From Alphaproteobacteria bacterium (GTDB taxonomy: Bacteria > Pseudomonadota > Alphaproteobacteria > UBA2966), in assembly GCA_018650465.1 (NCBI GenBank), contig JABIFY010000020.1, forward strand, positions 1-64,000: a DNA stretch of 64,000 bases. The letters are read 5' to 3'. Below, in pieces: positions 9,759 to 16,934 of the stretch (position 1 is the first letter of the stretch; each line of letters begins with the position of its first letter). The notes under the pieces are model-generated. The model saw only the letters and a list, made by a program, of their open reading frames with translations, ran no database searches and was not told where the DNA came from. The translations under genes and the position numbers were made by a program.

Positions 9759-10481
9759 ATGACTGACAGGTCTCTTGATCAAAAACGAGTTCTGTATGGT
9801 CGGCGCCGGGGGCACAAGCTTCGGCCCGGCCAGCAGGGACTTGTAGACACTCTCCTGCCCCATCTACGCGTGGCCCTTCCAATGGAAGGTATGATTGATC
9901 CAGCGAATCAGTTTGAAGTTCGTCAAAAGCCTGGCAATCAGGAATACTGGTTGGAAGTGGGATTTGGTGGCGGTGAACACCTCGCGGCTCAGGCTGAAGC
10001 AAATCCTGAAGTCGGAATTTTTGGCTGTGAGCCTTTTGAAAATGGCGTTGCCAGCCTGTTGTCGCATATCGAAAACAAGGGTCTACGCAACGTCTCTATT
10101 CATGATGACGATGCCCGCGATCTGATAGCGGTTCTGCCGGGTGCTTCTATCAGCAAAGCTTTTTTGCTGTTTCCCGATCCATGGCCCAAAAGCCGCCATG
10201 TCAAGCGGCGCTTCGTTTCGCTGGAAAACCTGACATCGCTGGCGCGGGTTTTGAAGGACGGGGCTGAATTCAGGGTGGCGACGGATCATGTATCCTATTG
10301 CCGCTGGGCGCTGTCGCAACTGTTAAAGCATCCCGATTTTGACTGGCACGCCGAGTGTGCGGCGGACTGGAAAGTCAGGTCGCCAGACTGGCCTGCAACC
10401 CGATATGAACAAAAAGCCTTCGATCAGGGCCGCAAGCCGGTATATTTCAGGTTTACAAGAAAAATGCGCGGTTCGATCTGA
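9759..10481 (+). CDS. trmB: tRNA (guanine-N7-)-methyltransferase
   Basis: This 240-residue SAM-dependent methyltransferase forms m7G46 in tRNA. Class-I features are clear: EVGFGGGEHL (SAM loop), FGCEPFENGVA, the characteristic LFPDPWPKSRHVKRRF, and TDHVSYCRWAL. It follows its methyl-donor synthase metK by 45 bp and may be co-transcribed. The stop codon adjoins the GANTC repeat array. Confidence 0.96.
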   Translation: MTDRSLDQKRVLYGRRRGHKLRPGQQGLVDTLLPHLRVALPMEGMIDPANQFEVRQKPGNQEYWLEVGFGGGEHLAAQAEANPEVGIFGCEPFENGVASLLSHIENKGLRNVSIHDDDARDLIAVLPGASISKAFLLFPDPWPKSRHVKRRFVSLENLTSLARVLKDGAEFRVATDHVSYCRWALSQLLKHPDFDWHAECAADWKVRSPDWPATRYEQKAFDQGRKPVYFRFTRKMRGSI

Positions 10482-10531
10482 ATCAAGCTGAATCACAATG
10501 AATCTGCATGAATCCGGATTCCTGGTGATTC
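10480..10531. repeat. Phased array of six GANTC sites (10-bp period)
   Basis: GAATC occurs at 10480, 10490, 10500 and 10510, then GATTC at 10517 and 10527. The first four are exactly 10 bp apart, within a degenerate 10-bp tandem repeat that starts at the trmB stop. GANTC is the target of the alphaproteobacterial cell-cycle methylase CcrM, so this short stretch offers six closely phased methylation sites. Confidence 0.85.
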
Positions 10532-10616
10532 ATCTCTTGAATTTCTCTCGCTCTCGGCGCATAGTCCCGCCCGATATCGTTATTTGAACGTTATTAACCC
10601 CGATAAAAACATAAAT

Positions 10617-10764: not shown

Positions 10765-11295
10765 ATGGACGCAACGGTCAAAATTGAAGCGATGATATCG
10801 CCAACACTCGAAGACATGGGTTTCGATGTGGTACGCGTGCGCTTTGAGGGTGGAAAAAAACCAATGTTGCAGATCATGGCTGAGCCAAAAGATGGCAAGG
10901 AAATGACTGTGCAGCATTGTGCTGATATCAGCCGGGCTGTTTCTGCGATCCTTGATGTTGAGGACCCGATCCCCGATGCCTATGAGCTGCAAGTCTCCTC
11001 CCCTGGTATGGATCGACCTTTGGTCCGGATTGGCGACTTTGAAGTTTATGCCGGGAATGTCGTAAAGATCGAATTGAAAATGTTGATGGAAGGTCGCAAA
11101 CGCTTCAGGGGTAGATTGCTGGGCGTTGTGGATCAAACCATTAATCTGGACATGGAGGGCCAGAACGTTGCGCTGCCCTTCGACCAGATTGCCGAAGCCA
11201 AGATTATTATTACCGACGAACTGATCGCCGAGACGATGCGCAAACAAGCGGCATTAAGCGAAACAGAGGAAAAAGACGTGAGCCAAAACGCATGA
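10765..11295 (+). CDS. rimP: Ribosome maturation factor RimP
   Basis: RimP assists 30S assembly. The 176-residue protein has the N-terminal domain with LEDMGFDVVRVRFEGGKKPMLQIM and YELQVSSPGMDRPL, then a C-terminal SH3-like domain. It is the usual first gene of the nusA-infB operon and its stop overlaps the nusA start. Upstream, the gap carries a GANTC array and a hairpin, so operon transcription may respond to methylation or attenuation (inference). Confidence 0.95.
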   Translation: MDATVKIEAMISPTLEDMGFDVVRVRFEGGKKPMLQIMAEPKDGKEMTVQHCADISRAVSAILDVEDPIPDAYELQVSSPGMDRPLVRIGDFEVYAGNVVKIELKMLMEGRKRFRGRLLGVVDQTINLDMEGQNVALPFDQIAEAKIIITDELIAETMRKQAALSETEEKDVSQNA

Positions 11296-12869
11296 GTACC
11301 GTGGAAACAGAAACGGCCACCGGCTGGAACCGGATGGAACTTCTTCAGATTGCCGATTCTGTCGCGCGTGAGAAAAATATTGATCCGCGCACCGTTCTTG
11401 AAGCAATGGAAGAAGCGATCCAGAAAGCGGCCCGCTCCAAATATGGTCATGAAAATGACATCCGGGCAGAGATCAATCCGAAGACCGGGCAGATCAATCT
11501 GTATCGCTGTCTTGAAGTCGTTGAAACTGTTGAAAACGACTATGTCGAAATTTCACTGGGATCAGCCAGCCGCCGCAATCCGGACGCGCAAGTGGGCGAC
11601 ACTATCGCTGATGAATTGCCGCCGATTGACTTTGGGCGTATTGCTGCCCAGACCGCCAAGCAGGTCATCGTGCAAAAAGTGCGCGAAGCTGAGCGCGAAC
11701 GTCAGTTCGAAGAATACAAGGATCGCATTGGTGAAATCATCAATGGTCTGGTCAAGCGCATGGAATATGGCAACGTAACCGTCGACCTTGGTCGCGGTGA
11801 AGCCGTTGTTCGTCGTGATGAATTGCTCCAGCGGGAAAGCTTCCGCCAGGGTGATCGCATTCGCGCCTATATCTATGACGTGCGTCGCGAACAGCGTGGC
11901 CCGCAGATTTTTCTGTCGCGGACACATCCGCAGTTTATGGCCAAACTGTTTACCCAGGAAGTGCCTGAAATTTATGATGGCATTATTGAAATCAAGGCTG
12001 TGGCCCGTGATCCAGGCAGTCGTGCCAAGATCGCTGTCCTGTCAAATGATGGCGCCATTGATCCGGTTGGTGCCTGTGTTGGTATGCGTGGAAGTCGCGT
12101 GCAGGCGGTTGTGAACGAACTGCAGGGTGAAAAAATTGACATCATCCAATGGTCGCCTGATCCCGCAACTTTCATCGTGAACGCTTTGGCCCCGGCCGAA
12201 GTTGCCAAAGTGGTTCTTGACGAAGATGCCATGCGCATTGAAGTTGTTGTGCCTGATGACCAGCTCAGCTTGGCTATTGGCCGACGCGGTCAAAATGTGC
12301 GCCTTGCGTCTCAGCTGACCGGCTGGGATATCGACATCATGACGGAAGCGGAAGAATCCGAACGTCGCCAGGAAGAGTTCCGCCAGCGCAGTGAAATGTT
12401 CATTACATCGCTGGATGTTGATGAAGTGATTGCCCAGTTGCTGGTGACCGAAGGTTTCACAACCATCGATGAAGTGGCTTTTGTCGCCATTGAGGAAATT
12501 GCCGAAATCGAAGGCTTTGACGAAGATATCGCGGCCGAGCTTTCCAGCCGGGCAAATGAATTCCTGACAGCAGAAGAAGAGCGCCATACTGAGCGTCGGA
12601 CAGAACTTGGTGTCGGCGACGATGTGGCTGAGATCGAGGGTCTTACCTCGGCCATGCTGGTTGTGCTGGGCGAAAATGAGATTAAGACACTGGATGATCT
12701 TGGCGATCTGGCCGGTGACGAATTGATTGAGATGCTACCTGACTTTGTTTTGGCTGAAGAAGAGGCTAACACCATCATCATGGCTGCGCGTGCGCACTGG
12801 TTTGATGATGAAGATGAGCCTGCAGTTGAAGAAGAGCCAACAGAGGCAAGTGAAGGAAGTGACGCGTAA
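11292..12869 (+). CDS. nusA: Transcription termination/antitermination factor NusA
   Basis: This 525-residue NusA has the N-terminal RNA-polymerase-binding domain (1-125), S1 domain (about 135-200), two KH domains with GACVGMRGSRVQAVVNELQGEKIDI and SLAIGRRGQNVRLASQLTGW, and two C-terminal acidic helix-hairpin repeats (about 370-500). These C-terminal repeats are standard for proteobacterial NusA. The start lies inside the rimP 3' end, and the stop is overlapped by the ylxR-like gene. Confidence 0.97.
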   Translation: MSTVETETATGWNRMELLQIADSVAREKNIDPRTVLEAMEEAIQKAARSKYGHENDIRAEINPKTGQINLYRCLEVVETVENDYVEISLGSASRRNPDAQVGDTIADELPPIDFGRIAAQTAKQVIVQKVREAERERQFEEYKDRIGEIINGLVKRMEYGNVTVDLGRGEAVVRRDELLQRESFRQGDRIRAYIYDVRREQRGPQIFLSRTHPQFMAKLFTQEVPEIYDGIIEIKAVARDPGSRAKIAVLSNDGAIDPVGACVGMRGSRVQAVVNELQGEKIDIIQWSPDPATFIVNALAPAEVAKVVLDEDAMRIEVVVPDDQLSLAIGRRGQNVRLASQLTGWDIDIMTEAEESERRQEEFRQRSEMFITSLDVDEVIAQLLVTEGFTTIDEVAFVAIEEIAEIEGFDEDIAAELSSRANEFLTAEEERHTERRTELGVGDDVAEIEGLTSAMLVVLGENEIKTLDDLGDLAGDELIEMLPDFVLAEEEANTIIMAARAHWFDDEDEPAVEEEPTEASEGSDA

Positions 12870-13482
12870 GGCCCCGGAAAAGGAGATTCCGGAACGGCGT
12901 TGCATCGTTGAAGGAGAGGTAAAGCCGGTCACAGAACTGATCCGGTTCGCAGTTTCGCCGCAAGGCGATATTGTACCCGACCTTGATGCAACACTGCCTG
13001 GGCGTGGTTTGTGGGTATCGTCCCGGCGTGACGCCGTCGACGAAGCTGTGAAGAAGAGGCGATTTGCCAAGGCTGCCAAAGCAAAAGTACGTGCGGAGGC
13101 TGGATTGGCGGACCTTGTTGAGGCCCGGTTACGGGTCAAATGTCTGGATTTGTTGGGTCTTGCCCGCCGGTCCGGTGATTTGATTTCCGGGTTTGAGAAA
13201 GTCAAAGCCACGCTGGCAGCAGGTGAAGCTGTTGTATTGCTGGCGGCGGCGGACGGTGCTGCGGATGGTCGCGAAAAATTGATGCGGCTTGGTCGGGACC
13301 TGCCCGTTGTGACGCTGTTTGGCGTCGCTGATATGAGTTTGGCGTTGGGACGCGAAAATGTTGTGCATGCGTCCCTGTCGTCTGGTGGTTTGGCGGACCG
13401 GTTTCTGAAGGAAGCCAAGCGTTTGGCCGGTTTTTGTGGTGATCGGGAAAATGATCCGGTTTTGCAAGAACCTGAGAAATGA
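12850..13482 (+). CDS. YlxR-domain RNA-binding protein with L7Ae-like C terminus
   Basis: A protein of about 210 residues of the alphaproteobacterial two-domain type. The N-terminal YlxR (DUF448) domain has the RRCIVEGE and GRGLWVS segments, and the C-terminal region (about 95-190, from LGLARRSGDLISGFEKV) resembles L7Ae/Gadd45-fold RNA-binding proteins. It sits between nusA and infB, the conserved place for this family. The upstream frame runs back inside nusA; I choose GTG 12850, overlapping nusA by 20 bp, with GTG 12859 as an alternative. A role in rRNA transcription or translation is likely by context. Confidence 0.88.
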   Translation: MKEVTRKAPEKEIPERRCIVEGEVKPVTELIRFAVSPQGDIVPDLDATLPGRGLWVSSRRDAVDEAVKKRRFAKAAKAKVRAEAGLADLVEARLRVKCLDLLGLARRSGDLISGFEKVKATLAAGEAVVLLAAADGAADGREKLMRLGRDLPVVTLFGVADMSLALGRENVVHASLSSGGLADRFLKEAKRLAGFCGDRENDPVLQEPEK

Positions 13483-13563: not shown

Positions 13564-16416
13564 ATGAGCGATACTGAAGAGCCTAAGGACAAAAAGAAGT
13601 CCCTGAGTTTAACTGGCGGAAGCCGTCTGGAATTGAAGAAAACAGTTTCTTCCGGACAGGTACGCCAGAGTTTTTCACACGGCCGCTCCAAAGCGGTAAC
13701 GGTGGAGGTCCGTAAAAAACGGTCCATCAAAGGCGCGAAGTCAGAAAGTGTCGTATCGAGAGGCGAAGCTGCCGCCGCACCAACTGTCACACCGCCACAG
13801 CCGGATAATGAAGCACCGAACGTAAAGCCGGTTGAGCTGGAAGTTCCAAAAACAGCTGCTCCGGCACCTGTTGTTGAGAAAGCTGTTGAAGCTACGGCAC
13901 CCGAACCGGTAGTGGAAGAGCCCGTCGCTGCTGCCACTGCTGAAGTGGCGCCTCCTGTGGCTGAACCTGAAGCAAAAACTCCGGTAGTCGAAGCCGCAGC
14001 AGAAGCAGTCGTTACACCCAAACCTGCGGCAGCGGCCAAACCGCCAGCACCTGTAAAGTCAGCAGCGGAAAGTCGCGGCGGTAACAAACCGGCACGTGCA
14101 CCCCGCCGTGATGGTAAATCCGGCCGTGGTCGTGTGGTTCTCAAATCCCTGACGGACGATGAAAAACGTGCTCGTTTAAAAGCCCTCGAAGGTGCCAAGC
14201 ACGCGGATGACCAAGCGCGGGCTCGTTCCGATGTTTTGGCCCAACGTCGTATTGACGAAGATGGCCGGCGGGCACAAGAAAAAGAAGAAGCCGAAACGCG
14301 CGTTCGTGAAGAAGCGGATCGCAAAGCCGCCGAAGCTGAATCCCGTAAGCGGGCCGAGGATACGGCTGCCAAGCGCCTGGAAGTTAAACCAGCGGCAGAA
14401 GTAGAGCCTGGTCGCGGTGGACCAGCGGTACCAGCAGGTCCGGCAGGTCGTCGTACGACGGAAGAAGAGCCTGCCCGTACCAAGGCCAAGCGTCCACGTA
14501 GCACTCGCAATGACGGTGGCAATCGCCGCCGTGGTGGTGGCAAGCTGACAATTTCAGATGCCTTGTCTGATCGTGATCCAAGGACACGTAGTCTGGCTGC
14601 GGTCAAACGTGCGCGGGAACGCGAACGTCGGGCCATGGAACAGGAAGAACGGACCAAGATTTTGCGTGATGTTGTGATCCCTGAAAGCATCTCGGTTCAG
14701 GAACTGGCCAGTCGTATGGCAGAGCGTGGCGTCGATGTGATCAAGACCATGATGGGTATGGGCGTAATGGCCACCATCAATGATACGCTTGATGCAGATA
14801 CGGCTGAATTGGTCGTGGCTGAATTTGGCCACCGCGCCAAACGTGTCGCTGATGCAGATGCCGATGTTGACCACACAGAAGAAGTTGATGAAGACGGTGA
14901 TATGCTGCCCCGTGCGCCGGTTGTCACGATTATGGGTCACGTTGATCACGGTAAGACATCCTTGCTGGATGCCTTGCGCTCAACGGATGTGGCCGAAGGC
15001 GAAGCCGGTGGTATTACCCAGCATATTGGTGCCTATCAGGTTCACCTGCCTTCCGGTAACGCTATTACTTTCCTTGATACACCAGGCCACGAAGCCTTCA
15101 GTGCCATGCGGGCACGTGGTGCGGAAGCTACCGACATCGTCGTGTTGGTTGTTGCAGCCGACGACGGCATTATGCCGCAAACGGTGGAAGCCATCCGCCA
15201 TGCCAAAGCGGCCAAAGTGCCAATCATTGTTGCCATCAACAAGATGGATAAACCAGGCGCCAATCCAGAGCGCGTGCGCAACGAATTACTAAGCCACGAA
15301 ATTCTTCTGGAATCTGTGGGTGGTGATGTGCTGTCGGTCGAGGTTTCGGCCAAGGAACGCACGGGCCTGGATAAACTGGAAGAAGCCATATTGCTTCAGG
15401 CCGAAGTGCTTGAATTAAGAGCCAATCCAGAACGTGCCGCCAGCGGTGTCGTTGTGGAAGCCAAGATTGACCGTGGTCGTGGCCCTGTGGCAACTGTTCT
15501 TGTTCAACGTGGGTCTCTGTCGGTTGGCGATATCTTTGTTGCCGGTAACGAAAGTGGTCGTGTTCGTGCCCTGATCGATGATCATGGCAAGAAGATCAAA
15601 ACTGCCGGACCATCTGTACCAGTTGAAGTTCTCGGCCTGAATGGTGCGCCGGATGCCGGTGACAATTTCACCGTTGTTGATTCCGAAGCCAAGGCTCGCG
15701 AAGTTGCAGAATTCCGCACACGTCGTACCAAAGACCAGTCTGCCGTCGCTTCGCCACGCAATACGCTGGAACAGATGTTCAGTCAGATCCAGGAAGGCAA
15801 AGCCAGCGAATTCCCGGTTGTCATCAAGGCCGATGTGCAGGGCTCACTTGAGGCCATTACAGGTGCCCTGAACAAATTTGGAACAGATGAAGTCAAAATC
15901 CGGATTTTGCATGGTGCCGTTGGTGGTATTAACGAATCGGATATCAGCCTCGCGCAAGCTTCCAATGCCCTGGTTATCGCCTTTAATGTTCGGGCCAATG
16001 TTCAGGCCCGCGATATGGCTCGTCGCGAAAGCACTGAAATTAGATATTATTCGGTGATTTACGATGTCACGGATGACATGAAAGACATCCTGTCCGGCAT
16101 GCTGGAGCCAACCAGGCAAGAAAACTTCATCGGCAATGCCGAGGTCAAGGAAGTCTTTGGCGTCTCCAAGATCGGCAAGGTCGCTGGTTGTTTGATTACC
16201 GATGGCTTGGTCAAAAAAGGTGCCGGTGTGCGGTTGCTGCGTGATAATGTTGTTGTCCACGAAGGCACGCTCTCGACCCTGCGTCGCTTCAAGGACGATG
16301 TAAATGAAGTGCGCGCTGGTACTGAATGCGGTATGTCGTTTGAAAATTACGATGATATCAAAGTCGGTGACGTCATCGAGGCTTTTGAAGTCGAGATCGT
16401 CGCCCGCACGCTCTAG
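13564..16416 (+). CDS. infB: Translation initiation factor IF-2
   Basis: This IF-2 of about 950 residues has a long low-complexity Ala/Pro/Glu/Lys/Arg-rich N-terminal region (to about 370). The GTPase domain follows with G1 GHVDHGKT, the switch segment GGITQHIG, G3 DTPGH and G4 NKMDK, then the fMet-tRNA-binding C-terminal domains. It positions initiator tRNA on the 30S subunit. [13 protein letters not shown] starting at ATG 13564 resembles the usual alphaproteobacterial N terminus; in-frame ATGs at 13537 and 13543 are alternatives. The gene is followed by a long hairpin before rbfA. Confidence 0.96.
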
Positions 16417-16514: not shown

Positions 16515-16934
16515 ATGGCAGGTCGCAATCGTGCGCCAAGCCAGCGCCAACTGCGCGTCGGCGAGGAACTTCGCCACGTCATTTCCGGCATTTTGTCGCG
16601 CGGCGAAATCCGCGACCCGGACGTTGAAGGTGTGGTCCTTACGGTAACAGAAGTCAGGGCGAGCCCTGACCTGAAATATGCCACTGTCTTTGTTGCCCCT
16701 CTGGGTGGTGGTGATGTGGACGCGATTCTTGCTGGCCTCAAGCGCTCAGCCAAATATGTCCGCGGCCAGGTCGCCCGTCAGGTCCGTCTGCGCAATACGC
16801 CGCAGTTCGTGTTCGAGCTGGACACTTCATTTGATACCGGCAGCCATATCGACAGCCTGCTGCACCGACCTGAAGTCCAGCGCGATCTCGGCGAAGATGA
16901 TGCGGGCCAGGATGATTTGGGCCAGGATGATTGA
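16515..16934 (+). CDS. rbfA: Ribosome-binding factor A
   Basis: RbfA binds 30S precursors and supports 16S 5'-end maturation. The 139-residue protein has the family's KH-like fold, with RQLRVGEELRHVISGIL, the ASPDLKYATVFV strand and LRNTPQFVFELDTSFD. The C terminus is acidic with a short repeated motif (DDAGQDDLGQDD), apparently made by local duplication. The start ATG 16515 follows AAGGAATA. Its stop overlaps the truB start as TGATG. Confidence 0.96.
   Translation: MAGRNRAPSQRQLRVGEELRHVISGILSRGEIRDPDVEGVVLTVTEVRASPDLKYATVFVAPLGGGDVDAILAGLKRSAKYVRGQVARQVRLRNTPQFVFELDTSFDTGSHIDSLLHRPEVQRDLGEDDAGQDDLGQDD

Follow-up and report, generated by a model that had tools for sequence, protein, structure and literature searches.

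A GANTC array upstream of the predicted rimP-nusA-infB promoter, a candidate lineage-specific promoter element in an alphaproteobacterial order without detectable GcrA

Most of what is understood about regulation by CcrM comes from cell-cycle genes and from GcrA, which is known to read methylated GANTC, and the ccrM gene of Caulobacter is itself under methylation control. Several methylation sites upstream of a promoter, read by a methylation-sensitive regulator, are also known from agn43, opvAB and pap. Caulobacter promoters with conserved GANTC are reported to lose activity when the sites are mutated (PMC3667746, PMC3708114). Among the 96 Caulobacter cell-cycle transcription start sites with GANTC, 11 have more than one GANTC within 50 bp upstream, and a group whose GANTC falls elsewhere than between the -35 and -10 is reported to be lowest at 40-60 min (PMC4287350), so position-dependent effects of GANTC are already known. 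The Caulobacter promoter P169 carries four GANTC, the methylation of which depends on a competing DNA-binding protein, MucR (PMC5172544). Switches of the Dam/GATC type, in which OxyR or Lrp takes part, are named in PMC3708114, and UP elements are described as containing helically phased alphaCTD sites centred at about -42 and -52 (PMC4496709). A depletion of GANTC in coding DNA has been reported for CcrM-bearing Alphaproteobacteria (PMC3973325). Within the portions of the literature that our search covered, no description was found of GANTC arrays of the size considered here at growth genes.

The locus presented here lies in a window of 64,000 bp, the whole stretch of alphaproteobacterial DNA that was analyzed, and consists of six GANTC sites ahead of rimP. 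Like the CcrM/GcrA promoters of Caulobacter (mipZ, ftsZ, podJ, ctrA P1), it has conserved promoter GANTC, namely three sites shared with a sister species, in a CcrM-bearing bacterium. However, the Caulobacter promoters usually have one or two sites, whereas three to six are found upstream of the -35 here, and a GcrA gene was not found in the order. With the MucR-protected hypomethylated promoters such as P169, the locus shares the presence of several GANTC in one promoter, although the targets differ. Three GANTC are also retained at the ccrM promoter of the genus in both species, in a register unlike that of the rimP group. The Dam/GATC switches involve another methylase, another motif and surface genes, whereas the rimP group is made of housekeeping genes. 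Finally, the likeness to UP elements is in the phased positions near -42 and -52 of the predicted start, but these are occupied by AT tracts in UP elements and by GANTC dyads here, with no extended A/T tracts found.

The six sites fall within 10480-10531, with 10 bp between the first four, then 7, then 10 (Table 1), in agreement with the original prediction of six GANTC in 52 bp, four of them 10 bp apart. That prediction had taken one GANTC per 256 bp as the expectation; the real background of the window is rarer, at one per 621 bp, with 103 sites observed against a mean of 237.6 in dinucleotide shuffles. This scarcity makes six sites in 52 bp more striking than was assumed. Elsewhere in the window, two GANTC are the most that any 52 bp contain, none of 100 whole-window shuffles had more than four in 52 bp, and none of 5000 shuffles of the local 366-bp region reached six. 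The proposed position at the head of the rimP-nusA-infB operon was also correct, as Pfam assignments gave the gene order metK, trmB, rimP-nusA-ylxR-infB-rbfA, with the last site of the array ending 233 bp before rimP. A TTGAAG with a TAATAT-like -10, judged by eye, precedes rimP in other family members. A search of the window with Rfam returned only one tRNA and no leader RNA family. On the assembly itself, we observed that GAATCTCAAAGTATGAATC is present at positions 84-102 of the window and also near the ends of contigs C3, C12, C13, C15, C19, C25, C28, C43, C44, C47, C48 and C51 of the same genome, mostly 60-105 bases from the contig start. It probably marks the terminus of a mobile element present in several copies, at which the assembly was interrupted.

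Table 1. Features of the rimP locus (window coordinates) and other GANTC clusters of the genus. Site distances are measured from the first base of the predicted -35 to the start of the site. G000, genome of the window; G001, its sister species.
Feature	Position	Strand	Remarks
trmB (tRNA guanine-N7 methyltransferase)	9759..10481	+	Methyltransf_4; start codon provisional
GANTC site 1 (GAATC)	10480..10484	+	Overlaps the trmB stop codon TGA (10479-10481); -57 from -35
GANTC site 2 (GAATC)	10490..10494	+	-47 from -35
GANTC site 3 (GAATC)	10500..10504	+	-37 from -35; also in G001
GANTC site 4 (GAATC)	10510..10514	+	-27 from -35; also in G001
GANTC site 5 (GATTC)	10517..10521	+	-20 from -35
GANTC site 6 (GATTC)	10527..10531	+	-10 from -35; also in G001
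Predicted -35 of the rimP operon, TTGAAT	10537..10542	+	Best-scoring sigma70-type promoter conserved in G000 and G001
Predicted -10 of the rimP operon, CATAGT	10560..10565	+	17-bp spacer
rimP	10765..11295	+	Pfam RimP_N and RimP C-terminal domain
nusA	11292..12869	+	Pfam
ylxR	12850..13482	+	Pfam YlxR
infB	13564..16416	+	Pfam IF-2 domains
rbfA	16515..16934	+	Pfam RBFA
Cluster upstream of rplU			Five sites in each species (G000, G001)
Cluster upstream of prs			Four sites in each species (G000, G001)
Cluster upstream of ccrM			Three sites in each species (G000, G001)
Cluster upstream of DsbA-like gene adjoining dciA			Present in both species (G000, G001)
Cluster upstream of pentapeptide-repeat gene	L273:5961-6034 (G001); L274 (G000 C95:9112-9185)		Seven and eight sites in the two species; conserved
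Cluster between flgE and fliF	L253 (G000 C27:28912-28938); L268 (G001 C59:13051-13077)		Three sites in each species
Cluster between etfQO and uracil-DNA glycosylase gene	C53 (L007, L248); 9-kb C140 (L008, L277)		On two G000 contigs
Cluster at rpmI-rplT			Seen in G001 only

A role for methylation, one of the two options of the original prediction, depends on the presence of CcrM, and the genome encodes one: on contig C83, a gene with N6_N4_Mtase and RAMA domains adjoins another that we take, from its sequence, to be rnhB. GcrA (PF07750) was found in none of the 15 genomes examined from the order; among 81 further genomes examined from the class, 51 have it. In control genomes, the RAMA and GcrA models both matched Caulobacter, and the GcrA model also matched Sulfolobus, presumably spuriously. 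In the sampled stretches of the genome of the window, the density of GANTC was 2.85 per kb in intergenic DNA and 1.22 per kb in coding DNA, a 2.3-fold difference, and the sister species had 3.15 intergenic vs 1.38 coding sites per kb. The occurrence of the array in relatives, also raised in the original prediction, was verified in part. In the sister species, the array is reduced to three of the six sites, and their distances from the shared -35 are unchanged (-37, -27 and -10), while most of the letters between sites differ and gaps fell at the retained sites when the two arrays were aligned globally. The order's 13 remaining genomes, out of 15, showed no array upstream of rimP, with at most one GANTC in 330 bp each. 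The rimP array is thus recent or dispensable, a point against the reading favored below. Similar arrays shared by the sister species at other growth genes (Table 1) suggest a lineage-specific promoter element, belonging to this genus within the order.

Genome pattern searches, together with sampled stretches (567,672 bp of G000 and 388,173 bp of G001), revealed the other GANTC clusters of the genus listed in Table 1. In the sampled stretches of both species, clusters were nearly all intergenic. Spacings within clusters were mostly 7 to 13, and strict 10-bp spacing was therefore dropped as a general rule. No GANTC was found within 130 bp upstream of the three tRNA genes present in the sampled stretches. 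Between flgE and fliF, a 27-bp element with three GANTC is identical in the two species, its flanks being conserved on one side and the DNA of the other side being different. The etfQO/glycosylase locus has two versions in G000, on C53 and C140, with glycosylase proteins 84% identical. These may be two copies (paralogues) or, more likely, the sign of a sister strain binned into the G000 assembly.

Clusters of at least three GANTC were found in 5 of 97 orthologous upstream regions in each species, and these five were the same in both. In the five clustered regions, 21 sites aligned, out of 23 and 25 in the two species, while in the 92 cluster-free regions 8 aligned, out of 38 and 42, which is the level of control motifs. 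Likewise, once the clusters were removed from the 97 regions, the conservation of isolated GANTC between the two species was at background. The aligned fraction of GANTC over the 97 regions (0.45) was the highest of 24 same-composition pentamers (next, 0.31), an overall value inflated by the fact that the compared stretches were partly picked for holding clusters, which does not inflate the contrast inside the aligned clusters. In eight cluster alignments, the positions of which are not independent, the outer G, A, T and C of the sites were identical at 130 of 156 positions, compared with 27 of 39 for the N position and 161 of 284 for the spacers. Selection on the letters of GANTC is well supported by these sequence comparisons.

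Five clusters lie directly upstream of a predicted -35, namely those of rimP, rplU, prs, etfQO and rpmI-rplT. Their sites start at -7 to -10, -17 to -20, -27 or -28, -37 to -40, -47 to -51 and -57 to -60 relative to the -35, so that, relative to the predicted start, the dyads lie near -42, -52, -61, -72, -82 and -92 (-44, -54, -61 and farther out for rimP). With one species per promoter (22 sites), the register had an R of 0.73 at period 10. Shifting whole arrays at random reached this value in 0.2% of cases, and placing the sites at random did so in 0 of 5000 trials; the other species set (18 sites, rpmI shared) also gave an R of 0.73, with 0.6% of random offsets and 0 of 5000 placements, the five promoters having been picked after their sequences were seen and rpmI coming from one species only. 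A mechanical search returned four of the five as the top-scoring conserved promoter. By eye, the TTGAC of rplU is at the same place in all 15 genomes of the order, and the TTGACC-N17-CATAAC of etfQO recurs in another genus, there without GANTC. The -35 assignments of these two promoters are consequently independent of the GANTC sites. The placement of the rimP sites on one face of the helix, claimed in the original prediction, holds and in fact reaches the -35 and four other promoters, but strict 10-bp spacing is limited to rimP and etfQO. In all five promoters, the sites are carried by the polymerase-facing side of the helix, which is used by activators and alphaCTD. The register fits class I activators, which follow a helical spacing. 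A register shared with the -35 is thus supported on five promoters. The ccrM promoter has its sites at -15, -5 and +19, out of register, the clusters at the DsbA-like gene, the pentapeptide-repeat gene and flgE-fliF yielded neither a clear promoter nor a clear register, and promoters with fewer than three GANTC showed no phase. As a separate observation, another genome of the same class (G119, L017:1501-1560) has six GANTC before a possible promoter, at -81, -58, -48, -38, -19 and -8, near the rimP register.

With a probability of roughly 0.55, we favor the reading that the rimP array acts in cis on its promoter and has been selected for GANTC, as part of a small set of such elements in the genus, the methylation of which would be read by a reader other than GcrA or by alphaCTD. 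The reading would probably go through CcrM methylation and a reader other than GcrA, the candidate being probably a methylation-sensitive activator or RNA polymerase itself. In such a mechanism, CcrM would methylate the sites of the array, and a GANTC-dyad-binding protein other than GcrA, or the alphaCTDs of RNA polymerase, would contact the DNA at about -42, -52, -61, -72, -82 and -92. Binding would differ among fully methylated, hemimethylated and unmethylated DNA, and promoter strength would then track the replication of the locus. Several in-register sites could lead to cooperative binding, much as an extended UP element or a row of class I activator sites would. A more specific and quite tentative version is that of a "methyl-UP element", in which the polymerase-side GANTC dyads would be read by alphaCTD directly or by an m6A-sensitive activator, with the replication fork tuning rimP-nusA-infB, rplU, rpmI-rplT and prs in a GcrA-less lineage.

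Of the 37 sites in these arrays, 36 have A or T at the N position, compared with 204 of 266 isolated intergenic sites. This bias is not something that CcrM alone would require, and it points to a protein contact beyond the methylase. It could also come from an ordinary transcription factor that binds GAWTC, in which case methylation would be irrelevant and the match to the CcrM target a coincidence. The -35 register would suit such a class I/II activator, and the clusters do serve a defined gene set. We nevertheless hold this explanation to be unlikely because no strong consensus beyond GANTC was seen around the 37 sites, because GAGTC and GACTC are also found in the DsbA-like and pentapeptide clusters, and because the scarcity of GANTC in genes is what a CcrM-linked motif would show. 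The same A/T preference, along with dyads near -42 and -52 that match the two alphaCTD sites, proximal and distal (PMC4496709), would be explained if the array were a UP element, with phased short AT islands bound in the minor groove by alphaCTDs and the flanking G and C incidental. This appears improbable, as G and C are conserved together with A and T in the 130 of 156 outer letters, the sites reach about -92, and UP elements are longer A/T tracts, whereas the rimP spacers are mixed (AAGCT, ACAAT, TGCAT) and GANTC alone recurs.

The original prediction had offered, as the other option, a slippage repeat with GANTC in its unit. The exact 10-bp spacing of four sites would be expected from slippage or another tandem duplication, and true slippage of GAATCCCGTT-like units does occur in another genome of the class (G030, L012:1501-1575), as an array of GAATCCCGTT/GAATCCCGCT units. 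At rimP, however, the three spacers differ from one another, Tandem Repeats Finder was silent at a minimum score of 30, and the sister species retains sites between which the spacers have changed, so that we give very little credit to this origin. The four-site 10-bp GANTC pattern was rejected as a diagnostic: among the matches listed, such arrays come from many phyla, a spread that a slippage origin would accommodate. A three-site 10-bp pattern, sought in 143 relatives, was rejected as well; it was present in 17 of 143 vs 4 of 143 for the reversed control, most matches were not near an obvious promoter, and one (L012) was the slippage array. Chance clustering where GANTC is tolerated, in line with its higher density between genes, is hardly conceivable given a P of 3e-7, at the intergenic rate, for another five sites no more than 47 bp away from any one site, and given the conservation of clusters at orthologous loci and their register.

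If the favored reading, a promoter element selected for GANTC and read through its methylation, is true, a second reader of the GANTC mark would exist, in an order without detectable GcrA. The supply of ribosomes and translation factors would then be tied to DNA replication in these bacteria.
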